From Agathobacter ruminis (GTDB lineage: Bacteria > Bacillota > Clostridia > Lachnospirales > Lachnospiraceae): a stretch of DNA of 64,000 nucleotides. The notes beneath the pieces were generated by a model, which saw nothing but the letters and a program-made list of their open reading frames with translations, was not told the DNA's origin and made no database searches. The DNA lies in assembly GCF_002735305.1 (NCBI RefSeq), contig NZ_PDYG01000006.1, positions 1 through 64,000 of the forward strand, given 5' to 3'. Within the stretch, counting starts at the first letter, position 1. The number at the start of each line of letters is the position of its first letter. Positions 6,340 to 22,212 of the stretch are shown piece after piece. The position numbers were made by a program, and so were the translations under genes.

Positions 6340-8334
6340 ATGAAAAACGCAGATAAGTATATCAGACAATATTTTCTCCCGGAAATCTATGAGACAGACT
6401 GGGTGAAAAAGGATTATATTGAGCATCCACCAATCTGGTGCTCAGTTGATTTACGCGATGGAAACCAGGCTTTGATTGAACCGATGAGCTTGGATGAAAA
6501 GCTTGAATTTTTCCAGATGCTTGTGGATATCGGTTTTAAAGAGATTGAAGTTGGATTTCCGGCAGCATCAGAGACTGAATTTATTTTCATGAGGACTCTG
6601 ATTGAACGGGATATGATTCCGGATGATGTGACAGTTCAGGTATTGACACAGGCTCGTGAGCATATTATTCGCAAAACATTTGAAGCGGTAAAGGGCGCAC
6701 CTCATGCGGTTGTGCATTTGTACAATTCTACATCTGTTGCACAGCGCGAGCAGGTGTTTAAGAAAGATAAAGAACAGATTAAGCAGCTTGCAATTGACGG
6801 AGCAAAGCTTCTTAAAAAGCTTGCGGATGAAACAGAAGGCGATTTCTCATTTGAGTATTCTCCGGAAAGCTTCCATGGAACGGAAGTTGAGTATGCAGTT
6901 GAGGTTTGTAATGCAGTACTTGATGTATGGCAGCCGTCGAAGAACAAATCCATCATCAATATTCCTGCAACTGTGGAAACAGCAATGCCTCATGTGTTTG
7001 CAACACAGATTGAATATGTGAGCAAGCATTTGAAGTATCGAGACAATGTTGTCTTATCACTTCATCCACATAATGACAGAGGAACCGGCGTGGCGGATGC
7101 AGAACTCGGTTTGCTTGCAGGAGCCGATCGAATTGAAGGAACATTGTTCGGAAATGGTGAGCGAACCGGTAATGTCGATATTATTACCATTGCGATGAAT
7201 ATGTATTCTCATGGCCTTGATCCGAAACTGGATTTTCATAATATGCCGCAAATTCGTGAAGTCTATGAACGTCTGACTCGTATGCATGTTCATGAGAGAC
7301 AGCCATATGCCGGTGATTTGGTATTCTCAGCTTTCTCAGGTTCTCATCAGGATGCCATTGCAAAGGGTATGGCATGGAGAGAAGAAAAGCAGTTAAAGGA
7401 GTGGACTGTTCCTTATCTTCCGATTGACCCGATTGATGTCGGCAGAACTTATGATGCAGATGTCATTCGTATCAATAGTCAGTCCGGAAAAGGTGGGGTA
7501 GCTTATATTTTGAAAAATAATTTCTCAATTTCACTTCCTGCAGCGATGCGCGAGGAGGTTGGATATCTTGTGAAACAGGTATCCGATGAGAATCATAAAG
7601 AGCTTTCACCACAATGGATTTATAATATTTTTGAAGAGAATTATATTACTCGGACCCCGTATTTCAGTATTCCGGATGCTCACTTCAAGCAGGTAGATGG
7701 AATCATGGCGGAGACGACAATCCAGTACCGGGACAAATCAGCCATTGTCAATGCATATGGAAATGGTCGTTTGGATGCGGTGAGCAATACCTTGAAGCAA
7801 TTTTTCGATGTCAGCTATGAACTTTCAACTTATGAAGAACATGCACTTTCCCACGGCTCATCATCCAAAGCAATTGCGTATGTAGGAATTACCTGCAATG
7901 GAAAGAACTTCTGGGGCGCCGGCATGGATGAGGATATTATTAAGGCATCAATCAGAGCGCTTGTGGTTGCAGTTAATAAATTGCCGCAAATAGAAGAAAA
8001 AGAAGAAGGACAGGATGAGCGTCTGACCGCAATGCTCAATTATATTCAAAATAATTTCAAAGATGTTACTTTGGAGAGCATGGCGGCACAATTCAAACTT
8101 TCCGAGCCGTATATTTCGAAATATATTAAGGATAAATCCGGAAAAACATTTGGAGAACATGTGGCACATATTCGTTTGAAAAAAGCAAAAAGCATGTTGA
8201 AAAACGGCAATATGTCAATTGAATCCATTGCAAATGCAGTCGGGTATCCTACGGTGGAACATTTTAATCGTACATTCAAAAAAACATTTGAAAAAACACC
8301 AAGTCAATATCGCAATGACAAAGGTGAATCATAA
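6340..8334 (+). CDS. leuA: 2-isopropylmalate synthase fused to a C-terminal AraC-type DNA-binding domain
   Basis: First committed enzyme of leucine biosynthesis: acetyl-CoA plus 2-oxoisovalerate give 2-isopropylmalate. Residues about 1-330 form the DRE-TIM barrel ([43 protein letters not shown]), followed by the linker and a LeuA regulatory-type domain (about 430-548, with [15 protein letters not shown]). After a Glu-rich linker, residues 562-664 are a complete AraC/XylS double helix-turn-helix unit ([21 protein letters not shown]; then [25 protein letters not shown] and TPSQYR). Total 664 aa against roughly 510-560 for usual LeuA. The two parts are in one open frame with no sign of frameshift. 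GAGGAGGAG precedes ATG 6340. Gene stands alone; leuCD lie 31 kb away. Confidence 0.92.
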
Positions 8335-8474: not shown

Positions 8475-9602
8475 ATGACAAAAATTGATATTATTTCAGG
8501 CTTTTTGGGAGCCGGAAAGACAACCTTTATCAAGAAAATGATTGAGGAAGCGTACAAGGGTGAACAGATTGTTTTGATTGAGAATGAATTCGGTGAGGTA
8601 GGCATTGACGGCGGATTCTTAAAAGATGCCGGCATTGAAATTACAGAAATGAATTCAGGATGTATCTGCTGTACTTTGGTTGGTGATTTTGCAACCAATT
8701 TACGCGAGGTAATTTCCAAATATCATCCGGATCGTATTTTGATTGAGCCTTCAGGCGTTGGAAAATTATCTGATGTTATGACCAGTGTGATTAATATCGA
8801 AAAAGAACTGGATGTGAAATTAAATGCGCTTGTGACAGTTGTCAATGCTTTAAAAGCGCGTAAACAGATGAAAGCATTCGGTGAATTTTTCAATAACCAG
8901 ATCGAATATGCAACAACGGTTGTATTAAGCCGCTCTCAAAATGCGACGCCTGAGCAGCTGGAATTTTGTACCAAGGAAATTCAGCATCTGAATCCAAAGG
9001 CAGCTGTCATTACAACCGATTGGAAGGAAATTTCCGGAGAACAGATTTTAAAAGTAATCGAGGGAAGAGACAATCTGGAATTAAAGGTCTTGGCGGAAGC
9101 CGCACATGAAAAGGAAGAAGCGGAACATGAGCATGAGCACCATCATGACCATGATCATCACGATCACGATCATGATCACGATCACGAGCATCATCATGAC
9201 CACGAGCACGAGCATGATCACGATCACGAGCACCATCATGATCATGACCATGAGCACGAGCATCATCACGATCATGATGAAAATTGCACCTGCGGATGCC
9301 ATGATCATGACCACCATCACCATCATCATGCTGATGATATATTTACAAGCTGGGGAAAAGAGACCCCTCATAAGTTTGAACGCGCAAGAATTGAGGAAAT
9401 CTTGAAGCAGTTTGCAGAATCGGATCACATCCTTCGTGCAAAAGGAATGGTAGAAGATGTAAATGGCGGATGGATTTATTTCGATATGGTTCCGGGTGAA
9501 TATGAGCTTCGTGACGGCGAACCGGATTATACAGGCCGAATTGTAGTGATCGGAACAGAAATTCATGAGCATGAGCTTGAGGAAATTTTTGGACTTGCCT
9601 AA
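8475..9602 (+). CDS. COG0523 (CobW-type) GTPase with long His-rich metal-binding insert
   Basis: Cytoplasmic P-loop GTPase of the COG0523 metallochaperone family, 375 aa. Walker A GFLGAGKTT is at residues 9-17, the family metal motif CxCC at Cys63-Cys65-Cys66, and the Walker B-like IEPSGVG near residue 90. Residues about 215-290 are almost wholly His, Asp and Glu (repeats of HDHDHEH and HHDH), with a Cys-rich break CTCGC. A CobW C-terminal domain follows. The usual base-recognition motif NKxD is replaced by SRSQ (in VVLSRSQN), so nucleotide preference may differ. The His-rich stretch suggests zinc, nickel or cobalt storage or delivery; which metal is unknown. First gene of an apparent operon; the next GTPase starts 56 bp downstream. 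Confidence 0.88.
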   Translation: MTKIDIISGFLGAGKTTFIKKMIEEAYKGEQIVLIENEFGEVGIDGGFLKDAGIEITEMNSGCICCTLVGDFATNLREVISKYHPDRILIEPSGVGKLSDVMTSVINIEKELDVKLNALVTVVNALKARKQMKAFGEFFNNQIEYATTVVLSRSQNATPEQLEFCTKEIQHLNPKAAVITTDWKEISGEQILKVIEGRDNLELKVLAEAAHEKEEAEHEHEHHHDHDHHDHDHDHDHEHHHDHEHEHDHDHEHHHDHDHEHEHHHDHDENCTCGCHDHDHHHHHHADDIFTSWGKETPHKFERARIEEILKQFAESDHILRAKGMVEDVNGGWIYFDMVPGEYELRDGEPDYTGRIVVIGTEIHEHELEEIFGLA

Positions 9603-9658
9603 ATTACAATGGCGATAATTATTATAAGATAAGATTAGATTAGAAGAGGTAATAGCAT

Positions 9659-10603
9659 ATGGCACAGGAAATTCCTGTATATTTGTTCACCGGATTTATG
9701 GACAGTGGAAAGACTTCTCTGATTAAAGAGACTTTGTTTGAAAATGATTTTGGCGAAGATGCGCCGGGAATCGTTTTGATGTGCGAAGACGGAGAAGTGG
9801 AATTCGACGAAGCAGAATTGGCAAAAAAGAATTTGCAGCTGGTTGAAATCGAATCCGAAGAACAATTTAATCTGGATAAACTGAATGAAATTAATGATCA
9901 ATATCATCCGCAGATTGTATTTCTCGAATACAACGGAACATGGACGGCTGATAAAATTGTAGATCAGGAATTGCCAAAGGACTGGTTGATTATCCAGACA
10001 TTGATGACAATCGATTCTACGACATTTGATTTGTATTTGAATAATATGCGTGCAATGATGCAGGATCAGATTTTTATCTCTGATGTTGTGATTTTTAATC
10101 GTACAGATGATGAAACCGATCGCGGACACCTGCGCCGCATGATTAAAAATATCAATCGTAAAGCGCAGGTGGTATATGAGCGCAAAGATGGCACCATCGA
10201 TGAAAGACCGGAAGAACTTCCGTTTGATATTGATGCAGATGTCATTGATTTGCCGGATGCAGATTATGCAATCTGGTATATGGATTGTATGGAGAATTAT
10301 AAAAAATACGATCGCAAAAAAATCCACTTCAAGGCATTGGTTTATAATCCGGAAAAATTAAAGAAGGGCTTCTTTGTCCCGGGTCGATTTGTAATGACTT
10401 GTTGCGTGGAAGATATTCAGTTCCTTGGCTTTAAATGTAAATATGAAAACGAACAGGAATTAGAGCACAAGAGCTGGATTGATTTTACCGGTGAAATTCG
10501 TGTTGAATTTGCACGAGAATACAAAGGAAAAGGACCGGTACTTTATCCAATCGATATCAAACCGACGGAAAAACCGGAGGATGAATTGGTATATTTCTCG
10601 TAA
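9659..10603 (+). CDS. CobW-like GTPase fused to a YcgQ/DUF1980-like C-terminal domain
   Basis: Protein of 314 aa. Residues about 1-200 form a second COG0523-like P-loop domain: Walker A GFMDSGKTS at 12-20, IVFLEYNGT as the switch II region and NRTD in the NKxD position. The CxCC metal motif of its neighbour is absent. Residues about 220-314 (GRFVMTCCVEDIQFLGFKC, WIDFTGEI, YPIDIKPTEKPEDELVYF) resemble the C-terminal beta domain of YcgQ/DUF1980 (TIGR03943) proteins. In Bacillus those work with the predicted permease YcgR. No such permease gene is in this window. The similarity is from recall and should be checked. Probably a partner of the His-rich GTPase upstream in metal handling. Confidence 0.65.
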   Translation: MAQEIPVYLFTGFMDSGKTSLIKETLFENDFGEDAPGIVLMCEDGEVEFDEAELAKKNLQLVEIESEEQFNLDKLNEINDQYHPQIVFLEYNGTWTADKIVDQELPKDWLIIQTLMTIDSTTFDLYLNNMRAMMQDQIFISDVVIFNRTDDETDRGHLRRMIKNINRKAQVVYERKDGTIDERPEELPFDIDADVIDLPDADYAIWYMDCMENYKKYDRKKIHFKALVYNPEKLKKGFFVPGRFVMTCCVEDIQFLGFKCKYENEQELEHKSWIDFTGEIRVEFAREYKGKGPVLYPIDIKPTEKPEDELVYFS

Positions 10604-12937: not shown

Positions 12938-15367
12938 ATGGACGAATCAACGAGAAATCAAGCATCGCGTCAATTAAATATTGAACGAGTCAACCCGCAT
13001 CCTTATCAGGGCCTTAACCAAGAACAGGTTAAGGCTCGTTTTCACGCAAATGCATACAACAAAAAAGTAGAATCCTCTACCAAGTCCATTAAGGATATTG
13101 TAATCAGCAATGTCTTTACTTACTTTAATGGTGTATTTGCGGTTTTGGGTGTGCTTCTTGCAATGGTTGGCGCATTCAAGGACATGATGTTTTTGGGGGT
13201 TATTGTCTGCAATACGCTAATCGGTATTGTGCAGGAGGTGCGCTCCAAAAAAGTATTGGACAAGCTGATCCTTGCGCATGCACCACAGGCGCAGGTGGTT
13301 CGCGGCGGCAATATATATGTTGTAGATGCAGAAAAGCTGGTTCTCGATGATATCATTATCCTTGAAGCAGGTGCACAGATTCCGGCCGATGCGGTTGTCG
13401 TGGAGGGCAGTCTCGCGGTCAATGAATCGCTTTTGACAGGAGAAAGCGATGAAATTGCCAAAAATCCGGGTGATGCTTTGATGTCCGGAAGTTTTGTTGT
13501 GTCCGGAAAAGCATATTGTCGTCTGGAAAAAGTCGGAGCGGATTCTTATATGTCCCGTTTGACGATTCAGGCAACTAAGAGCAAACAAGGGGAACAATCA
13601 GAGATGATCCGGTCTTTGAATCGATTGATCATCGTGATGGGTATTTTGATTATTCCGATTGGTGTTGCATTATTTGTGCAATCTTATTTTATCAACGAGG
13701 GAAGTTTTGCGGATTCCATTACATCCATGGTCGCGGCTGTAATCGGAATGATTCCGGAAGGTCTGTATTTGCTGGCATCGGTTGCAATGGCATTGTCTGC
13801 AACCCGATTGGCAAAGCGTGATGTTTTGATTCATGATATGAAATGCATCGAGACACTTGCACGTGTAGATGTCCTCTGTGTGGACAAAACCGGTACCATT
13901 ACGGAACCGGGAATGCAGGTTTATTCGTTTGAACCATGTCTGACCGGTGAGACGGAGCGGGAGGCATTGCTGGACGAATTGCATGCAAAAATTTCGGATT
14001 TTGCGGCTGCATTGCCGACCGATAATGAGACCATGCGTGCGCTGCAGGCTTATTTTCAAAAGACAACCGGCAAAAAACCGGTACAGATTTCAACCTTTTC
14101 GTCTGAGACCAAATATTCAGGCGTCGCATTTGAAAATGCAACTTATGTTATTGGCGCCCCTGAATTTGTCATGAGAGACGAACTCGGAAAGATTTCCGGA
14201 CAAATCGAAGAATATTCAAAGCAGGGATATCGTGTCCTTGTTTTTGGTGAATATAAAGGCAAGCTGGACGGAAAACGTCTGAATGCAAAGGTGGTTCCGC
14301 TTGGCATTGTCATGCTTTCCAATCCGATTCGAGAGGGAGCGAAGGATACCTTTGGTTATTTTGCGCAGCGTGATGTGGAAATCAAAGTAATTTCAGGAGA
14401 CAATCCGCTTACGGTATCCGTCATTGCGAGGGAAGCCGGAATTGCAAATGCGCAATATTATGTGGATGCGACGACATTAAAAACTGAGGAAGATCTGAAA
14501 GATGCAGTCGATCGCTATACCGTATTCGGTCGCGTGACACCGAGCCAAAAGAAGAGTCTGGTCCTCGCATTGAAAGCAAAAAAACATACCGTTGCCATGA
14601 CCGGCGACGGTGTCAATGATATATTGGCACTGAAGGAGGCAGATTGCAGTATCGCAATGGCTTCAGGAAGTGAAGCCGCTTCGAATGTGGCACAGCTGGT
14701 ATTGCTGGATTCGAACTTCGCAAAAATGCCATCCGTTGTCATGGAAGGACGGCGCGTGGTCAACAATATTGAGCGAACGGCAAGTCTTTATGTGGTGAAG
14801 AATATCTTCTCCATGCTGATGGCAATTTTCTCTGTACTGCTGATGTGGGATTATCCGCTTGAGCCGACGCAGATTTCGCTGATCAGTATGTTTACCATCG
14901 GAGCACCGTCGTTTGTGCTTTCTCTGGAACCGAACAAGAATCCAATTCGAGGGCATTTCCTGACCAATGTATTCCTGAAATCAATTCCGGCCGGCGTAAC
15001 AGATTTCCTGGCTGTCAGTGGATTGGTATTTTTCTGCCGTGAGTTTGATGTGGATCTCGAATGCCTGTCGACCTCTTGTACGGTTTTGGTGGGAATTGTC
15101 GGATTTATGATTTTATATCGTATTTCAAAACCGATGAATGTTCTGCATGTCAGCATGCTTGTGATTGTCATTCTCGGCTATCTGTTTGGCATGTTCTTTA
15201 TGAGTGATTTCTTCTCAATTACGGCAATTACCAAGCAGTGTGCAATGCTTACCGTCGTATTTGCAATCATGACGGAACCGGTATTACGATATCTTTCAAT
15301 TATTTTTGATCATATCAATGAAAGGATTCTCGAAAGAGATAAAAATGGGAAGAAAACATCATTGTAA
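12938..15367 (+). CDS. P-type cation-transporting ATPase
   Basis: Integral membrane ion pump of 809 aa. Motifs seen: actuator loop LLTGESDEI, TM4 motif IPEGLYLLAS, phosphorylation site VDKTGT with Asp316, and hinge TGDGVNDILALKEADCSIAMASGS. There is no N-terminal heavy-metal domain or CPC motif, so this is not a P1B metal pump. PEGL in TM4 recalls P2-type pumps, but with PEGLY rather than PEGLP, so the ion (calcium, magnesium or another) cannot be assigned. I chose ATG 12938, 8 nt after GGGGG at 12925-12929, over TTG 12935. It lies 24 bp after nfnB and is probably the last gene of the operon; the next promoter overlaps its stop codon. Confidence 0.85.
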   Translation: MDESTRNQASRQLNIERVNPHPYQGLNQEQVKARFHANAYNKKVESSTKSIKDIVISNVFTYFNGVFAVLGVLLAMVGAFKDMMFLGVIVCNTLIGIVQEVRSKKVLDKLILAHAPQAQVVRGGNIYVVDAEKLVLDDIIILEAGAQIPADAVVVEGSLAVNESLLTGESDEIAKNPGDALMSGSFVVSGKAYCRLEKVGADSYMSRLTIQATKSKQGEQSEMIRSLNRLIIVMGILIIPIGVALFVQSYFINEGSFADSITSMVAAVIGMIPEGLYLLASVAMALSATRLAKRDVLIHDMKCIETLARVDVLCVDKTGTITEPGMQVYSFEPCLTGETEREALLDELHAKISDFAAALPTDNETMRALQAYFQKTTGKKPVQISTFSSETKYSGVAFENATYVIGAPEFVMRDELGKISGQIEEYSKQGYRVLVFGEYKGKLDGKRLNAKVVPLGIVMLSNPIREGAKDTFGYFAQRDVEIKVISGDNPLTVSVIAREAGIANAQYYVDATTLKTEEDLKDAVDRYTVFGRVTPSQKKSLVLALKAKKHTVAMTGDGVNDILALKEADCSIAMASGSEAASNVAQLVLLDSNFAKMPSVVMEGRRVVNNIERTASLYVVKNIFSMLMAIFSVLLMWDYPLEPTQISLISMFTIGAPSFVLSLEPNKNPIRGHFLTNVFLKSIPAGVTDFLAVSGLVFFCREFDVDLECLSTSCTVLVGIVGFMILYRISKPMNVLHVSMLVIVILGYLFGMFFMSDFFSITAITKQCAMLTVVFAIMTEPVLRYLSIIFDHINERILERDKNGKKTSL

Positions 15368-15389
15368 AAGATGAAAATTATTGTATAAT
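15362..15389 (+). promoter_or_regulatory. Promoter of the 15.4-22.2 kb unknown-function cluster
   Basis: TTGTAA at 15362-15367, which includes the stop codon of the P-type ATPase gene, 16 bp spacer and a perfect TATAAT at 15384-15389. This supports a separate transcription unit beginning here. Confidence 0.65.
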
Positions 15390-15421: not shown

Positions 15422-18400
15422 ATGAGAAATCGAATGAAGCAACTTGCAAGAGGCAAGTTTGAATACGATGTTCCTGTTATTCAATTCTCCGATGAATCAT
15501 TATCTTTGACTGTAATCGAAGGGGAAGATTATTCCGGTAGTTTTTCCCTTACCAGTCAAAACGGAATGAAGATTAGAGGAGTTTGTTATTCCACAAATGA
15601 GCGGATGGAGTGTCTGACCCCGCAGTTTGATGGAGAGGAAGTGCGTATTCGTTATCAACTTCATAGCAAAGGGCTCATTGACCAGGAAGTTTTAAAGGGC
15701 GAATTTGTGATTGTATCCAATCGATTTGAATACAGTCTTCCTTTTGTTGTCACAATTTTCAAGAATTATATGGATTCCACAAATGGATTCATTAAGAATC
15801 TTTATGATTTCTCATGCCTTGCGAAAGAACATTGGGATGAAGCATATCAATTGTTCTATCATAAGGGCTTTCAAAATATCATCAAGCCGAACGAAGTAAA
15901 AGAATCCATGATTTACAGGGGAATGATGGGCGCAAAACCATCTAACCGTAATATGGAAGAATTCCTTGTCGGTATCGGGAAAAAGCAAAGGGTTCTTTTT
16001 TCATGCGACAGAAGTGATTTTACTTTTTCTGATTTGGAAGATTCACAAAAAGATTCCATTTCCATTCAAAAAGACGGATGGGGATTTATTGAGATTACAC
16101 TTTCGAGCGATTCGGAATTTATCGATATCCCGAAGAAAAAAATCCAGACAGATGATTTTATCGGAAGCAGCTGTCAGGTTGATTTTTTTGTGCGCAAAGA
16201 GGCGCTTCATGCAGGCAATAATTATGGCCGGATTCGATTGAAATCAACTTATCAGGAGATTGAAATTCCGGTTACGGTACTTGGCACATTATCTTCGGAC
16301 GAGATGGAGGCGCGAAAGCGCAGACATGATATCAAAGAGAGTCAAATCGGTTTGCTCGAATTGTATCAGGCATATCGTCTCAAACGCCTTGTGACGGGCA
16401 GTTGGTCCAATGAAACAGTTACGATTCTGGATCATTTGCATGCACTTGAGCCGGATGAACCAATGTACCTTTTGATGAAAGCGCAGGCGTTGTTGATCAA
16501 CAGACAGCGTCAGGAATGCGAATGGATTCTGGAAGATTTCAAGCGCGATTGGACGGATCGCGAGTCACCGATTTGGGCATATTATCTCTATATTCAGACA
16601 CTGCTGGAACGCGAGCCTGTTTATGTGGATAAGATGACTGCGGAAATCAAACTGATATTCCGAGAAAATCCGAATTCCATGTTGGTTTTCTGGATTCTGA
16701 CATTCCTGGATGAGAGCTATTATAATAACAGCTCCTTGAAATTAAAGGCAATTGAATATTGGGTGAATCGTGGATGTACCTCACCTTACCTATATTTGGA
16801 AGCATATTATTTGATCTGGCAGGATCCGTATCTGTTGACCAAACTGGATTTGTTTGAGTTGAGATTGCTCAGATGGGCAGTGCGTCACAAGGCAATGAAC
16901 AAGGATATCGCGGCCCAGATTTTTCAGATTCTTGCCTATACGAAGGAGTTTTCCAATACATATTATGAATTGATGTGTGCAGCATATCAGGCAGATCCGA
17001 AACCGGAATATGTGGGCACCATTGTCAGCTATCTGATTCGAACCGAACAGTTTGATGAGACATATCATGAATGGTATGCCAAAGGCATCGAACTGGAATT
17101 GCGTGTGACCGGATTGTATGAGGCATATCTGACTTCAATGGAAGAGCGCAATATCTCTTCTTTGCCAAAGATGATCCGCATGTATTTCCGATATGAGAGC
17201 AATCTGCCATATCGCAAACTGGCTGTGCTCTATAATAATATTATTGCAGCAAAAGAGTCGGACAAAGAGACCTATGACCAGTACCGGCGTACGATGGGAC
17301 GCTTTGCAATGGAACAGGTCGAAGCGGAACATATGGATGACAATCTGGCAGTATTATATGAAGATATGTTGGACCTTGGTCTGGTCAATGAGGAAATTGC
17401 GCATTCGCTGGCACATATTGTTTTCACGAACAAACTGATTGTGTTCGAAAACCACCTGGTGCGTGCGATTATCTACCAGCGTGAGCTGAAAGATCCGCAA
17501 ATTGTCCCGATTCAGAATAATGTTGCATATTTCCAGCTCTTTTCGAAAGATTATGTGATTTTATTTGAAGATGAAAGCGGGCATCGTTATGCAGGTAGCG
17601 TTTCCTATCGCCTGCAGCCGCTGATGAATGCGCGCAATTATCTGGAAAAATCCATGCTTCTGGCTCCGGATGAACCGTCTTATGTGATTTACAGATTCCA
17701 GGGCAAGCGCAATTATCTGACATTCCAGCCGGAAGATAAACAGTTCTTCAGGAGAATCCTGTTCGCAGAAGATTTCTCGAGAGAATTTATGAGCGAGATG
17801 GTGCCGGAAATCATTCGTTATCTGTCTGTTGCGGAATATGATTCTGTAATGAAGGAATTCCTTGATACAGTTGACATCCATGATTATGATGCGACTGCGC
17901 GTAAATATCTGATGGAACAATTCGTAGAGAATCATCTGTATGAGCGGGCGGTGGAAGCGGTCGAAGAGTTTGGAATCAATCAGGTCGGAAAATCATACAA
18001 GGTTTCTCTTTGCAATCGCCTGATTTTGGAGAATCAGTATGAGGAAGACGATCATATTACCCGTTTTTGCACGAGAGTATTCTATGATGGCAAATATACG
18101 GATCTGATTTTGAATTATCTTTGCAAATATTATACCGGTCCGTCCAATTTTATGATCAAATTGTGGAAAGCATCGCGCAGTTATGATATTGATACATTTG
18201 ATTTGGAAGAAAAAATTCTGACACAGCTGATGTATTCCGGCAAGCTTGATTATACGACCTTTGATATTTTTGCGCATTATTATGACTGCGGCGGAAGAGA
18301 ACTGATTGTAATGGCATATATCACTTATATGTCTCACGAATATTTTGTCGCATCAAAAGAATTGACGTCGGATGTGTTTGGTCTGCTCGAAGGCCGTTAT

Positions 18401-18970
18401 ATGAGCGGCTTTGAACTGAATGATGCCTGCAAACTGGCTCTTTTAAAGCGATTATCCGAGCTTCCGACTATTTCGGAAGAACAGTTTGCCATCGAAGATG
18501 CTTTGCTTTCGGAATTCACGAATAAGAATATGAATTTTGCCTTTTATAAAAAGCTGGATAAGCGTCTGGTGGCAAAATATCATTTCTATGATAAGGTATT
18601 TCTGGAATATCGTGCGAATCCGCTCAGTCATGTCGTGCTGCACTACAGCATGAACGAGGCGGATGACTCCTTTGTGGCAGAGGATATGGTGGATGTATAT
18701 GACGGCATATTCGTCAAGAGCTTTGTCATGTTTTTCGGAGAACGTATCCGCTATTATATTTCGGAAGAAAAATCTGCTGTGGTAGAAGTATCGGAAAGCT
18801 GTGAAATCTTAAATAACGATGTTTATTCGGATGGAGAAGAGAGTCGGTATAATCTGCTCAACCAGATGATGATTTCGCAGACATTGCAGGAAGACGCGGC
18901 ATTGTTGAAGACCATGAACCGGTATTTCGGATATGAAGAAGTCAGCAAAGAGGCATTCCATATTTTGTAG
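15422..18970 (+). CDS. Giant beta/alpha-solenoid protein (DUF5717-like), function unknown
   Basis: Soluble protein of 1182 aa with no signal peptide or membrane segment. Residues about 1-290 look all-beta, with two or more Ig-like units (SLTVIEGEDYSGSFSLTS, VRIRYQLHSKGLIDQEVLKGEFVIVS, and a second set ending EIPVTVLGTL). From about residue 300 on it is almost entirely helical, with TPR/HEAT-like pairs of helices (for example LHALEPDEPMYLLMKAQALLI). The C-terminal 150 residues again contain beta strands. I recall this architecture as DUF5717 of Lachnospiraceae. First of four genes on one strand, with an Hsp70-like gene 12 bp downstream. Start ATG 15422; GGAG lies 12 nt upstream, a rather long spacing. 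Function unknown; a scaffold or chaperone-like role is speculation. Confidence 0.7.
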   Translation: MRNRMKQLARGKFEYDVPVIQFSDESLSLTVIEGEDYSGSFSLTSQNGMKIRGVCYSTNERMECLTPQFDGEEVRIRYQLHSKGLIDQEVLKGEFVIVSNRFEYSLPFVVTIFKNYMDSTNGFIKNLYDFSCLAKEHWDEAYQLFYHKGFQNIIKPNEVKESMIYRGMMGAKPSNRNMEEFLVGIGKKQRVLFSCDRSDFTFSDLEDSQKDSISIQKDGWGFIEITLSSDSEFIDIPKKKIQTDDFIGSSCQVDFFVRKEALHAGNNYGRIRLKSTYQEIEIPVTVLGTLSSDEMEARKRRHDIKESQIGLLELYQAYRLKRLVTGSWSNETVTILDHLHALEPDEPMYLLMKAQALLINRQRQECEWILEDFKRDWTDRESPIWAYYLYIQTLLEREPVYVDKMTAEIKLIFRENPNSMLVFWILTFLDESYYNNSSLKLKAIEYWVNRGCTSPYLYLEAYYLIWQDPYLLTKLDLFELRLLRWAVRHKAMNKDIAAQIFQILAYTKEFSNTYYELMCAAYQADPKPEYVGTIVSYLIRTEQFDETYHEWYAKGIELELRVTGLYEAYLTSMEERNISSLPKMIRMYFRYESNLPYRKLAVLYNNIIAAKESDKETYDQYRRTMGRFAMEQVEAEHMDDNLAVLYEDMLDLGLVNEEIAHSLAHIVFTNKLIVFENHLVRAIIYQRELKDPQIVPIQNNVAYFQLFSKDYVILFEDESGHRYAGSVSYRLQPLMNARNYLEKSMLLAPDEPSYVIYRFQGKRNYLTFQPEDKQFFRRILFAEDFSREFMSEMVPEIIRYLSVAEYDSVMKEFLDTVDIHDYDATARKYLMEQFVENHLYERAVEAVEEFGINQVGKSYKVSLCNRLILENQYEEDDHITRFCTRVFYDGKYTDLILNYLCKYYTGPSNFMIKLWKASRSYDIDTFDLEEKILTQLMYSGKLDYTTFDIFAHYYDCGGRELIVMAYITYMSHEYFVASKELTSDVFGLLEGRYMSGFELNDACKLALLKRLSELPTISEEQFAIEDALLSEFTNKNMNFAFYKKLDKRLVAKYHFYDKVFLEYRANPLSHVVLHYSMNEADDSFVAEDMVDVYDGIFVKSFVMFFGERIRYYISEEKSAVVEVSESCEILNNDVYSDGEESRYNLLNQMMISQTLQEDAALLKTMNRYFGYEEVSKEAFHIL

Positions 18971-18982
18971 AAGAGGCTATTT

Positions 18983-20203
18983 ATGTCAGAGAATGAACCA
19001 ATTTATTTAGGCATTGATTTGAATGACAAATCAGCAATGGTAAGTTATTACAAACCGAATATGGATGAGCCGGAGACGGTCAGCACTGTGGCAGGAAGCG
19101 AGGTATATAGTATTCCGACCATTTTGGCCAAGCGCAAGAATCTCAGCATGTGGTATTACGGAGATGAGGCGGTCAAAATGGCCAAGAGTTCTGACCTTGT
19201 CTGTGTGGATGCGCTGCTTCGCCGGGCTCTTGTCGGAGAAATGATTCATATTGATGATGAAGTCTATGATGCAAAAGAACTGCTTGCGCTGTTTATCAAA
19301 AAGTTGATTCAGCTGACGCAACGACTTGGGGCCATGCAGGGATTTGACAAACTGGTTCTGTGTGTGGAGCGCCTTTCGCGTGACAATATGGATTTGTTTT
19401 GGAATATTGCCGGCAAATTGGGACTGACCAGGGAACAGTTTCAGGTAATCGATCATCGGGAGAGTTTTTATTATTACACATTTCATCAGGATGAACGGCT
19501 GTGGGCCAGAGATGTTTATCTGTTCTGTTATGAACGCGATTTGCTTTATTCCTATTATCTGAAGCGCGACATGCGCACCAAACCTCAGGTAATTACAATC
19601 CTTGAGAGTCAGAAGAAAACACTTGGCGGAGACCGTGATCTGGAATTTTTGCGGATTTTAAACAAGTCTTTTGAAAATCAGATTGTTTCATCGGTTTATC
19701 TGGTCGGAGACGGTTTTGAAGGAGACTGGATGAAGCAGTCTTTGAATTTCCTGTGTCGTGGTCGCCGTGCTTTTATGGGCAATAATCTGTTCTCAAAAGG
19801 CGCATGCTATGCGGCGGCAACCGGAGACTGGCCATACATTTATATGGGCGAAAACGAGATGAAATTTAATGTTTCTCTCAAAATGAAAAATCGTGGTAAT
19901 ATGGAATTCTACAATTTGATCAGTGCCGGAAAAAACTGGTTTGAAATGGAAGGCGAGTGTGAAGTCATTCTTTCCGGGTCACATGAGATTGACTTCTGGA
20001 AACAGCTGCCGAGATCGCGCGAGGCGAGCATCGAGACACTCGAACTGACCGATTTGCCAATGAGACCGGACAAGACGACACGGCTTCGCATCAAAGCAAA
20101 GCCAATTTCAGTAGACAAAGTTGAAATCGAGATGAGAGATCTCGGCTTTGGGGAAATATTCCGCAGTACGGACAAGACATGGAAATATACGATGACCATG
20201 TAA
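18983..20203 (+). CDS. Degenerate Hsp70/actin-fold protein (DUF5716-like)
   Basis: Protein of 406 aa with an actin/Hsp70 nucleotide-binding fold. Residues 8-22 (LGIDLNDKSAMVSYY) match the phosphate-1 loop, although the usual GTT is changed. VYLVGDGFEGDWMKQSL near residue 235 fits the adenosine motif. The phosphate-2 motif (DLGGGT in Hsp70) appears as an unrelated hydrophobic segment (VYLFCYERDLLYSYYL), so ATP hydrolysis may be lost. Residues about 295-406 form a beta-rich domain recalling the Hsp70 substrate-binding beta sandwich. No DnaJ or GrpE gene is near. It sits between the giant solenoid protein (12 bp) and a TPR protein (9 bp), so the products are likely to act together. Confidence 0.65.
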   Translation: MSENEPIYLGIDLNDKSAMVSYYKPNMDEPETVSTVAGSEVYSIPTILAKRKNLSMWYYGDEAVKMAKSSDLVCVDALLRRALVGEMIHIDDEVYDAKELLALFIKKLIQLTQRLGAMQGFDKLVLCVERLSRDNMDLFWNIAGKLGLTREQFQVIDHRESFYYYTFHQDERLWARDVYLFCYERDLLYSYYLKRDMRTKPQVITILESQKKTLGGDRDLEFLRILNKSFENQIVSSVYLVGDGFEGDWMKQSLNFLCRGRRAFMGNNLFSKGACYAAATGDWPYIYMGENEMKFNVSLKMKNRGNMEFYNLISAGKNWFEMEGECEVILSGSHEIDFWKQLPRSREASIETLELTDLPMRPDKTTRLRIKAKPISVDKVEIEMRDLGFGEIFRSTDKTWKYTMTM

Positions 20204-20212
20204 GGAGCATTC

Positions 20213-21052
20213 ATGGGTGAATTATTATTATGTAATGAGCAAATAGCGGCAATGCCGTATTATATAGACGGGTTGTCCATCAATATTTACTCAATTGAAG
20301 AATTGAATTATTATATCGCAAATAATGTTTATCTACTGGACTCCGATTTTATGAGTGAGGAATTGTGCGCATGGCTGGAACGAGAGCTCGGATTGCGCAC
20401 CATGGCTGAAAAATTGCGTGATATTATGCGTGACAATGGTAGGCTGTCCTCATTTGTGGAATACATTCTCAAAGAATCCTATTATTTTACTCCGGCGCAG
20501 GCTGCGGATATTCTTGCCGTTCTCTGTCAGATGGAGGAAAAGAGTGATTTTGAAATTGACAAGATGCGTGCCGACCGTTTAATGGAAAAGGAAAAATACC
20601 TGTGCAGCATCTATGCCTATAAGCATTTGCTGACTTCGACGGATGCGCAGCTTGCAGATCCGGTCGTGGTTGGAAATATCTATCACAATCTCGGGACTGC
20701 CTATGCGAGACTGTATATGTTCCGGGAAGCGATTGATTATTACAAGACTGCTTATGACAAGAATCAGGATCCGGAGACATTAAAAGAATGGTTGTTTGCT
20801 TATCGATGTCTGAAGGATGATGATGCTTTTATGAAGACGGCTTTGGAGCATGGTCTCGATGATATGCAGATTACCGAAATCAAAAACGAGCTTTCGATGT
20901 ACAGCAGAAATCAGGATATTAAAGATTTCGAAGAACAATTGGCAAAATATGCGGATGAAATCAATACCGGCGACCGTGTGCGGTTTGCAAAAGAATCAGA
21001 GCGTTTGCTTGCCGGATGGAAAGATGAATACCGAAGGATTTGCAGAGTATAA
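20213..21052 (+). CDS. TPR-containing protein of unknown function
   Basis: Soluble helical protein of 279 aa with no signal peptide. The N-terminal part (about 1-115) is a separate helical domain. At least one clear TPR lies near residues 155-190 (NIYHNLGTAYARLYMFREAIDYYKTAYD), with weaker flanking repeats. AAGGAG at 20202-20207 overlaps the previous stop and precedes ATG 20213. TPRs mediate protein-protein contacts, so an adaptor within the four-gene cluster is a reasonable guess; nothing in the sequence shows the partner. Confidence 0.65.
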   Translation: MGELLLCNEQIAAMPYYIDGLSINIYSIEELNYYIANNVYLLDSDFMSEELCAWLERELGLRTMAEKLRDIMRDNGRLSSFVEYILKESYYFTPAQAADILAVLCQMEEKSDFEIDKMRADRLMEKEKYLCSIYAYKHLLTSTDAQLADPVVVGNIYHNLGTAYARLYMFREAIDYYKTAYDKNQDPETLKEWLFAYRCLKDDDAFMKTALEHGLDDMQITEIKNELSMYSRNQDIKDFEEQLAKYADEINTGDRVRFAKESERLLAGWKDEYRRICRV

Positions 21053-21054
21053 AA

Positions 21055-22212
21055 ATGGCATTTTTTTTAAAGAAATTATTTCAAAGGCATAAAACAAAAA
21101 AAGAGACACAGGATTTGTCATATGAACTGTCGCAGTCCAAAGAAAAGAAACATGTTTCGGTAGAATTGTGCGAGCAGATGATTGATATGTCGCGGGAAAT
21201 CGAAAATATCCGCGACGAATACCGCATTGTGTCCGCATATTTGAATGATATGCAGATTATTGAGGATTTGTTGCCGGAACAGAGATCTAAGCTTGCGGAT
21301 ACAGCGACACAGATTTCAAATCTGAATCATGTGCGGGATGAACTGCTCGAGACACGAAACCGTATCTCGGACAGTCAATTTGCGCAATTCCAGGAAAATG
21401 AACAGGAACTGGTACGGGCGATTAAACGTCTCGAATCCAACGAAACCTATCTGGCGGCAATCGAACGGGACCTGCATGTGCTCGAAGGCGAAAAACTCTC
21501 TTTGAATATCGATAAAAAAAGTGCAAAGAAGGAATTGAAACAGCTCAAACGGATTTCAGTCTGGCTGCTCGTTCTGTTTGCAACCTTGCTGGGAATTTAT
21601 GTCACTCTGACGCTTGCCTTTCAACTGGATGTGGCATTGCCGATGTTTATCGGCATGTTTTTGGTCGCTTTGGTCGGCAGTGTCTGCATGGTGCGCCAAC
21701 AGGAATGTCAGAAAGATATTCAGCAATGTGATATCAATCTCAATCATACGATTTCGCTTGAAAACCGCGTAAAAATCAAATATGTCAATATCAAAAACGC
21801 GGTTGATTATGCATGCGAAAAATATCATGTTCAAAATTCGCGGGAATTGTTGTATTATTATGAACAGTATCTCGAGGCGGTAAAAGAACGCAAAAAATTC
21901 CGCGAAGCGAATGATGATTTGAATTATTACAATGAAAAACTGATTCGTCAGTTGCAGGAATTACAATTGTATGATTCCCGCGTTTGGATCAATTATCCGC
22001 ATGCCATCTGTGATAAAAAAGAGATGGTGGAATTAAAACATAATTTGATTGTCCGCAGACAAAAGCTGAGAAATCGGTTAGAATATAATACAGACGCCCT
22101 CCATCAGATGAAAGAGAAGGCGCTCGTCTATCTGGACGATGAAGGAGAGAACCGGACACAGATTGAATCGATTATACGACGCCTGGATTCTTTGAATCAG
22201 GGCGCTATATAA
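21055..22212 (+). CDS. Coiled-coil membrane protein of unknown function
   Basis: Protein of 385 aa. An N-terminal basic, amphipathic stretch is followed by a long heptad-rich coiled coil (to about residue 165), then two adjacent TM segments (about 168-188 and 193-213), then a second coiled coil to the C-terminus. Both coiled coils should be on the same, probably cytoplasmic, side. I chose ATG 21055, 2 nt after the TPR gene stop; an in-frame TTG at 21040 lies inside the upstream gene. It may tether the cluster's soluble proteins to the membrane; that is inference. Confidence 0.65.
   Translation: MAFFLKKLFQRHKTKKETQDLSYELSQSKEKKHVSVELCEQMIDMSREIENIRDEYRIVSAYLNDMQIIEDLLPEQRSKLADTATQISNLNHVRDELLETRNRISDSQFAQFQENEQELVRAIKRLESNETYLAAIERDLHVLEGEKLSLNIDKKSAKKELKQLKRISVWLLVLFATLLGIYVTLTLAFQLDVALPMFIGMFLVALVGSVCMVRQQECQKDIQQCDINLNHTISLENRVKIKYVNIKNAVDYACEKYHVQNSRELLYYYEQYLEAVKERKKFREANDDLNYYNEKLIRQLQELQLYDSRVWINYPHAICDKKEMVELKHNLIVRRQKLRNRLEYNTDALHQMKEKALVYLDDEGENRTQIESIIRRLDSLNQGAI

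Follow-up and report, generated by a model that had tools for sequence, protein, structure and literature searches.

What do four closely packed genes encode that form a near-universal set in one family of gut bacteria and whose function is undescribed in the open-access papers searched? The question is raised by positions 15422–22212 of the window analysed here (a whole stretch of 64 000 nucleotides from Agathobacter ruminis, family Lachnospiraceae; positions 1 to 64,000 of contig NZ_PDYG01000006.1, assembly GCF_002735305.1), where genes for a DUF5717 protein, a DUF5716 protein, a tetratricopeptide repeat (TPR) protein and a coiled-coil membrane protein, here called CCTM, follow one another. 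A first-pass annotation, made from the sequence letters, had suggested a membrane-tethered assembly or chaperone-like machine using a pseudo-ATPase. We read the set as an ATP-independent scaffold resembling yeast Ssz1, which the fourth subunit would dock at the membrane where the species has flagella; the client and mechanism we infer, and we give this reading a probability of roughly one half.

A conserved four-gene set

The features of the set are as follows.

15362..15389, plus strand: sigma-70-type promoter TTGTAA-N16-TATAAT, its -35 overlapping the stop codon that ends the P-type ATPase gene before it
15422..18970, plus strand: DUF5717 protein, 1182 amino acids (aa), immunoglobulin (Ig)-like domains and alpha-solenoid, putative scaffold (Pfam PF18984, PF18983; AlphaFold2 predicted local distance difference test, pLDDT, 88.2)
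15479..15793, plus strand: first Ig-like beta sandwich of DUF5717, residues 20–124 (strand pattern of the model)
15995..16285, plus strand: second Ig-like beta sandwich of DUF5717, residues 192–288 (model and PDB matches)
16295..18577, plus strand: alpha-solenoid of DUF5717, residues 292–663 and 741–1052, interrupted by a beta domain, residues 669–733 (model; matches to Ski- and Ctr9-complex chains)
18593..18811, plus strand: C-terminal beta domain of DUF5717, residues 1058–1130 (model)
18983..20203, plus strand: DUF5716 pseudo-Hsp70, 406 aa, with the fold of the nucleotide-binding domain (NBD) and the beta part of the substrate-binding domain (SBD-beta), no lid, ATPase residues lost (PF18980; AlphaFold2; Foldseek against PDB; motif table)
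19868..20200, plus strand: SBD-beta-like domain of DUF5716 with a D-x-GFGE motif (border set from the strand pattern)
20213..21052, plus strand: TPR protein, 279 aa, with a conserved N-terminal domain (20213–20554) and one weak TPR unit (residues 156–185)
21055..22212, plus strand: CCTM, 385 aa, coiled coil, putative two-helix transmembrane hairpin, coiled coil; flagellum-linked accessory subunit
21541..21702, plus strand: hydrophobic block of CCTM, residues 163–216, long enough for two transmembrane helices

The four genes are consecutive, with intergenic gaps of 12, 9 and 2 nt, as the first-pass annotation had it (same strand, gaps of at most 12 nt), and its naming of the first two products as DUF5717 and DUF5716 agreed with the Pfam scan (DUF5717_N, 6.5e-278; DUF5717, 3e-100; DUF5716_C, 5.2e-108). 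The best start of CCTM is the ATG at 21055, a TTG at 21040 being an upstream alternative.

Sampled at one genome per genus, the family yielded DUF5716_C in 195 of 200 genomes, in single copy in all but two of these. Three of the five genomes that lack it retain DUF5717 (whole in one, in pieces in two), while G029 and G091 have neither. All four genes stand consecutively in 69 of 80 named relatives, an order too widely kept to be due to chance; together with the 195 of 200 genomes, this answers in the affirmative the gene-neighbourhood check that the annotation had proposed. Eight of the remaining 11 loci end at a contig border, one (L180) is a failure of the gene caller with DUF5716 present, and the fourth gene was not found in L186 (Shuttleworthella satelles) and L193 (Eisenbergiella porci). 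By record title, most of the 80 relatives belong to the Lachnospiraceae (Roseburia, Agathobacter, Pseudobutyrivibrio, Eisenbergiella, Shuttleworthella and others), a few being titled only Eubacteriaceae, Clostridiales, Bacillota or uncultured bacterium, and the nearest shares 88% identity in DUF5716.

Beyond the family, the C-terminal domain of DUF5717 was found in 93 of 196 genomes drawn at the level of the order, 71 of them outside the family. Draws from the class (9/245) and the phylum (2/199) gave DUF5717 only within the window's family, so that relatives outside the order were discarded as a candidate. The TPR protein's N-terminal domain was detected in 11 of 291 genomes of the class; ten of these belong to the family, and the eleventh, from elsewhere, is a marginal match (8.3e-5). 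A mobile element was likewise discarded, with no plasmid match. Five unannotated faecal records titled 'Bacteriophage sp.' (H1–H5) encode DUF5716 relatives of 25–53% identity and are perhaps bacterial contigs, and one locus (L083) encodes a DUF5717 without its N-terminal part.

In the portions of the open-access literature covered, no function is described for the gene set, DUF5717 goes unnamed, DUF5716 is named in one paper, which by its title and abstract treats a different subject, and inactive Hsp70s of this kind in bacteria were not found among the papers listed; nor did we find an essential-gene screen for the set in that literature. The kinds of component are known, and it is the machine, its reduction and its link to flagella that were not found in print there.

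A predicted Hsp70 fold without ATPase residues

The AlphaFold2 model of DUF5716 (pLDDT 92; predicted template modelling score, pTM, 0.87) comprises an NBD fold followed by SBD-beta, where it ends in beta strands; the alpha-helical lid of the substrate-binding domain (SBD-alpha) is absent from the predicted structure. A Foldseek search of the PDB returned 391 matches (E ≤0.001), of which the best 50 were all Hsp70-class or Hsp70-bearing entries, namely DnaK, Hsc70, BiP, Hsp110 (Sse1), mortalin and the ribosome-associated complex (RAC) with Ssz1, as well as complexes presumably matched via their Hsp70 chain, e.g. the ciliary central pair. By sequence, a search of the PDB reached DnaK at E 0.009 and 0.04. 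With both an NBD and an SBD fold in the model, DUF5716 would belong to the Hsp70 superfamily by ancestry, and the Hsp70 fold assigned to the 406-aa protein at first pass is thus upheld by model and matches alike.

We then compared nine ATP-handling residues (T11, T12, N13, K70, E171, D194, G197, G198 and T199) in DUF5716, in the Hsp70s HspA, HspC and Hsp70-vWA (a fusion to a von Willebrand factor A domain) of longer operons described below, and in the degenerate Hsp70 (pHsp) of those operons. The reference was an alignment to 10 DnaK proteins of the same genomes, with DnaK numbering; K70, E171, T199 and the phosphate-1 and phosphate-2 motifs are covered by the nine. All nine residues are kept in 65 of 67 proteins of the intact groups (DnaK, 10/10; HspA, 22/22; Hsp70-vWA, 16/16; HspC, 17/19), and together in none of the 23 DUF5716 and 19 pHsp proteins. 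Of these 42, none keeps K70 or T199, and two, both pHsp, keep E171. The window's DUF5716 has D, K, S, L, H, C, R, D and L at the nine positions, and bulky residues, which might fill the nucleotide cleft, are often found at ATP-site positions in both degenerate groups. The loss of the phosphate-2 motif noted at first pass is therefore real but far too narrow a description, the loss extending well beyond that motif. The motif table supports the prediction that DUF5716 is unable to run an ATP cycle, that is, the pseudo-ATPase that had been proposed.

The SBD-beta part carries a D-x-GFGE motif of which D386, G388 and G390 are invariant in the alignment A3. A C-terminal motif of this D-x-G-F-G-E type is present in 20/23 DUF5716, 15/19 pHsp and 9/19 HspC proteins, and in 0/52 of the others. 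This retention speaks against reading DUF5716 as an actin-like, cytoskeletal scaffold that organises the membrane or cell pole with peptide binding gone. Such a reading would suit the actin-like fold, the large repeat scaffold and the coiled-coil membrane protein, but SBD-beta persists and contains one of the best conserved motifs of the protein, the best 50 of the 391 Foldseek matches are Hsp70-class rather than MreB or FtsA, and the sister operons are of Hsp70/GrpE type. We regard it as improbable.

A longer Hsp70/GrpE operon in sister families

In other families of the order, the DUF5717, DUF5716-type and TPR genes are part of a longer operon, with as many as nine genes, which holds three intact Hsp70s (one fused to vWA), a GrpE-like coiled-coil protein, a dead Hsp70, Ig/solenoid proteins and the TPR protein. 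One such operon (L089), scanned with Pfam, encodes DUF5717 as two pieces of 388 and 900 aa, HspA (559 aa; HSP70, 6e-78), a 630-aa protein with a GrpE domain (7e-11) at its end, pHsp (a degenerate Hsp70; DUF5716_C, 2e-33), HspC (HSP70, 1.6e-63, with a weak DUF5716_C match, 1e-12) and the Hsp70-vWA fusion (HSP70, 8e-92; VWA, 7e-10); downstream of Hsp70-vWA stands a TPR protein, of 387 aa in L105. Profiles made from the L089 proteins mark the same series of genes in most of the sister-family loci retrieved. L116 has nine genes in a row with CCTM last, and CCTM follows the TPR gene in five of the 16 sister-family loci in which this stretch is visible (G202, G295, G332, G317 and G206). Incomplete loci also occur, L097 and L119 having DUF5717 without the Hsp70s and L086 and L095 lacking the later genes; L099 and L115 end at contig borders. 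In one sister-family genome (L082/L102) the Hsp70-vWA and TPR genes are each split into two reading frames. Matches listed elsewhere for Hsp70-vWA cover its Hsp70 part or its vWA part, never both. The link to this operon, which lay beyond the view of the first-pass annotation, supports the possible chaperone-like role suspected there.

On a quick Hsp70 tree, DUF5716 (23 proteins), HspA, HspC, Hsp70-vWA and DnaK each form one clade. The first branch of the DUF5716 clade is the protein of G202, whose operon retains active Hsp70 genes, and this position, on a tree without an outgroup root, speaks for the family having lost the active Hsp70s rather than for a gain elsewhere. In the window genome, the Hsp70-vWA profile matched DnaK only, and PF00012 gave DnaK at full length, a partial match (2e-14) and a third, weaker one.

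DnaK being the only clear full-length Hsp70 among the matches listed for the window genome, DUF5716 might act as its co-chaperone in the manner of Ssz1 or Hsp110, the scaffold bringing DnaK to the membrane or to clients and the ATP coming from outside the operon. Atypical Hsp70s such as Ssz1 and Sse do act on a canonical Hsp70, according to the passages of PMC8476630 that treat them, and in sister families the pseudo-Hsp70 is paired with active Hsp70s. Set against this, neither a J domain nor GrpE is present among the four window proteins, and a strong Hsp70 is found in all 34 genomes scanned, which makes co-occurrence uninformative. We hold this explanation, which is compatible with the other readings, to be rather unlikely.

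The company of HSP70, GrpE, TPR and Ig-like proteins also recalls one theme of the GAP1-N2 systems, as outlined in part of PMC7159879, and hence a defence or conflict system. A PADLOC scan of the sister-family operon gave weak matches for three of five proteins, HspC and Hsp70-vWA to PDC-M61B (4e-11 and 2e-7), plausibly via the Hsp70 fold, and the GrpE-like protein to ZorA3 (0.0014). For the four window proteins, however, no PADLOC family was matched (E 0.01), neither a GTPase nor GAP1 was found in the L089 operon or among the nine flanking genes scanned, and the set is near-universal in the family rather than patchy. The missing PADLOC matches and the near-universality led us to reject a defence system, which we consider very improbable.

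CCTM co-occurs with flagellin

No Pfam family matched CCTM above its cut-off. Home-made hydrophobicity and heptad scores, as opposed to a dedicated transmembrane or coiled-coil program, show a single hydrophobic block between heptad-rich stretches. The annotation's two coiled coils around two transmembrane segments thus hold as regards the heptad-rich flanks and a block long enough for two helices, but the block is one. One homologue (L146), of 967 aa, bears a long charged extension at its C-terminus.

The CCTM profile matched 93 of the 200 family genomes, 90 of them strongly, and the gene lies at most 2.5 kb from DUF5716 in 67 of the 68 genomes in which both positions are listed, the exception having the two on different contigs. 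Flagellin was present in 110 and SpoVAC in 137 of the 200. Across these genomes, CCTM and flagellin occur together in 88, CCTM alone in two, flagellin alone in 22 and neither in 88 (Fisher p 2e-32), three weak CCTM matches (E 8e-6 to 1.2e-4; G013, G105 and G198) being counted as absent. At a completeness of at least 90%, by rounded values (n = 168), the counts are 70/0/19/79. With spoVAC as a control, no association was seen (61/29/76/34; odds 0.94).

Shared ancestry was addressed by a paired test. Its tree covers the 139 genomes, out of the 200, whose loci were retrieved; on it CCTM changes 12 times, flagellin 24 and SpoVAC 25. Ten independent supported pairs were obtained, with flagellin changing the same way in 8.6 and the opposite way in 0.1 (median p 0.004, range 0.002–0.039); restricted to complete genomes, the test gave 8.8 against 0.0. 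SpoVAC gave 1.6 the same way and 2.8 the opposite way, a null result, and a link to sporulation was rejected on this and on the lack of association in the 200 genomes.

The flagellum link could still be indirect, CCTM being a general membrane adaptor lost in a streamlining that also removes flagella. In Eubacterium rectale, the loss of motility accompanies a smaller genome and other gene losses, as stated in the relevant part of PMC7278147. But spoVAC changes as often as flagellin and yet is unassociated with CCTM in both tests, and no strong CCTM carrier that is at least 90% complete lacks flagellin, so an indirect link seems unlikely to us. The association is a first phenotype lead for a system otherwise unexplained. 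DnaK, DnaJ and GrpE are cited, in a part of PMC2782266, as positive regulators of flhDC that are required for flagella in Escherichia coli; in the study of motility genes of Eubacterium and Roseburia (PMC3720852), a term search of the text available found no mention of TPR, Hsp70 or coiled coils.

The scaffold, the TPR protein and signs of an assembly

The AlphaFold2 model of DUF5717 (pLDDT 88.2, with a pTM of 0.62 that leaves the domain arrangement uncertain) has two N-terminal Ig-like sandwiches, followed by an alpha-solenoid that a small beta domain interrupts; a further beta domain stands at the C-terminus. This is not the beta/alpha solenoid first proposed for the 1182-aa protein. Its best PDB matches were ciliary central-pair chains and CEP192, whose Ig-like domains we take to be of the ASH type, followed by Ski- and Ctr9-complex chains. 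Whole-length TM scores were low throughout and a sequence search of the PDB returned nothing for DUF5717, and these matches are a likeness of fold, not kinship.

Calling the third product a TPR protein proved right in that a TPR unit is present behind the conserved N-terminal domain, but this is a single weak match (4e-4) below the Pfam cut-off. The longer sister-family protein (L105) matched models of TPR proteins to E 3e-21, below their cut-offs except for one domain model. In L078, DUF5716 (1–421) and the TPR protein (434–709) form one open reading frame of 709 aa, a fusion that supports an assembly and is the sole direct hint of binding. The membrane-tethered assembly suggested at first pass accordingly fares unevenly. 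The fusion favours its assembly part, whereas the tether, occurring in under half of the genera (90/200 strongly) and going with flagella, is an accessory and not the essence of the system.

Promoter and neighbouring genes

A plausible form of the dedicated promoter claimed for the set was located, TTGTAA-16-TATAAT at 15362–15389. The promoter scan alone was not above chance (31 sites versus 26.3 expected); by eye, a TTG...TATAAT/TATACT pair stands upstream of DUF5717 in eight of nine close relatives, the selected start of the reading frame obscuring the upstream region in the ninth (L122).

Among the loci L061–L100 and L122–L201, 107 show a gene upstream of DUF5717; in 55 of them it is divergently transcribed and encodes a HisC/CobD-like aminotransferase, and this holds in eight sister-family loci too, by phmmer with one query, for which the best NCBIfam model was CobD, under its cut-off. 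The window has the P-type ATPase in this position. In L161, DUF5717 is immediately preceded, on its own strand, by genes for an Hsp70-type protein of 628 aa and a protein of 390 aa, a putative dnaK-dnaJ pair. Elsewhere in the window, 6340–8334 encodes an isopropylmalate-synthase-like protein (HMGL-like, with a LeuA dimerisation domain) that ends in an AraC-type helix-turn-helix, an unusual fusion of enzyme and regulator, and 8475–10603 holds two CobW-family genes side by side, the second with a DUF1980_C domain.

A proposed mechanism

In the scheme that we propose, the four products would form one cytosolic complex around the dead Hsp70. DUF5717, with its Ig domains and alpha-solenoid, would be the large scaffold; DUF5716, lidless and predicted to lack an ATP cycle, would be a fixed binding partner like yeast Ssz1, possibly still able to bind a client through its fold, and the TPR protein would bind it directly. 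CCTM may form a membrane hairpin whose cytosolic coiled coils dock the complex at the membrane, and would be kept only while the cell is flagellated. The complex would derive from a larger ATP-driven machine that persists in sister families and in which the work would have fallen to active Hsp70s and a GrpE-like factor; the family presumably dropped the ATPases and retained the scaffold. Because CCTM is found almost solely alongside flagellin, one job of the docked complex is probably to serve the assembly, placement or number of flagella.

Several observations weigh against this scheme. Flagellin (Flagellin_N) is a proxy for flagella, and the tree of the paired test was built from the operon's own proteins; a tree of DUF5716 only gave seven pairs (5.7 versus 0.0; median p 0.031, range 0.016–0.22). 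Counting the weak CCTM matches as present, two of the three being in flagellin-less genomes, changes the distribution to 89/4/21/86 and the paired test to 11 pairs (8.5 versus 0.1; median p 0.004, range 0.002–0.18). Since 22 flagellated genomes have no strong CCTM match, CCTM is not required for every flagellum, and since 88 of the 90 genomes without flagellin keep DUF5716, the main job of the core is not flagellar; motility as the job of the core was rejected on this count. With CCTM tracking flagellin and DUF5716 not doing so, we see CCTM as a flagellum-dependent accessory of a flagellum-independent core.

Other such points concern the reduction. Among 18 family genomes, PF00012 found, besides fragments, extra Hsp70-type genes in G049 (two), G133 and G149 (one each); two of these proteins were placed on the tree, where they fall next to DnaK rather than among HspA, HspC or Hsp70-vWA. 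One sister-family locus (L081) has a reduced three-gene form. Its DUF5716 falls inside the family clade, for which reason transfer or contamination is possible (genome G359, 86% complete, 5% contamination). On the Hsp70 tree the pHsp group falls into two parts (two changes) and long branches draw warnings, which leaves the precise origin of DUF5716 uncertain; that it descends from the pHsp of the operon is argued from position and from the C-terminal motif that the two have in common.

A fuller account, which we offer tentatively and think doubtful as a whole, is that an order-specific Hsp70 machine (three lidless Hsp70s including Hsp70-vWA, a giant GrpE, a pseudo-Hsp70 and Ig/TPR scaffolds) was stripped in one family to its pseudoenzyme, leaving an ATP-independent platform whose CCTM-docked form would assemble or position flagella while the undocked form would serve another, near-universal task. 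The family would then offer, it seems, a naturally occurring example of a chaperone machine pared down to its dead paralogue, in which what a pseudo-Hsp70 is used for in the absence of its ATPases can be tested directly.

Comparison with known systems

As described in the sections of PMC8476630 devoted to it, Ssz1 of the yeast RAC, whose core structures are among the best 50 Foldseek matches of DUF5716, is an atypical Hsp70 that, like DUF5716, has an NBD fold and SBD-beta without the SBD-alpha lid; it binds ATP with little or no hydrolysis and is a stable partner in a docked complex, the role that we propose for DUF5716. Unlike ATP-binding Ssz1, DUF5716 has lost its ATP-site residues, and it has no J-domain partner among the four window proteins, its putative partners being the TPR protein and the solenoid. 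We infer that the two are convergent rather than orthologous.

With DnaK–DnaJ–GrpE the longer operons share an Hsp70 and GrpE homology (Pfam scan of L089). Their Hsp70s differ from DnaK in having no lid, as judged from Pfam coverage and length, no J protein was found in the operon, and the GrpE domain ends a coiled-coil protein of some 600 aa. The GAP1-N2 systems of the HSP70/GrpE theme, in the portion of PMC7159879 (Kaur et al. 2020) that describes them, likewise combine HSP70 with GrpE and with a repeat protein that has fibronectin type III (FNIII) and TPR or DnaJ, a subset having a second HSP70 without a peptide-binding domain. The sister-family operon differs from these in joining up to three active Hsp70s, the Hsp70-vWA fusion included, to a pseudo-Hsp70, and the system as a whole in being near-universal in one family and there reduced to the pseudo-Hsp70.

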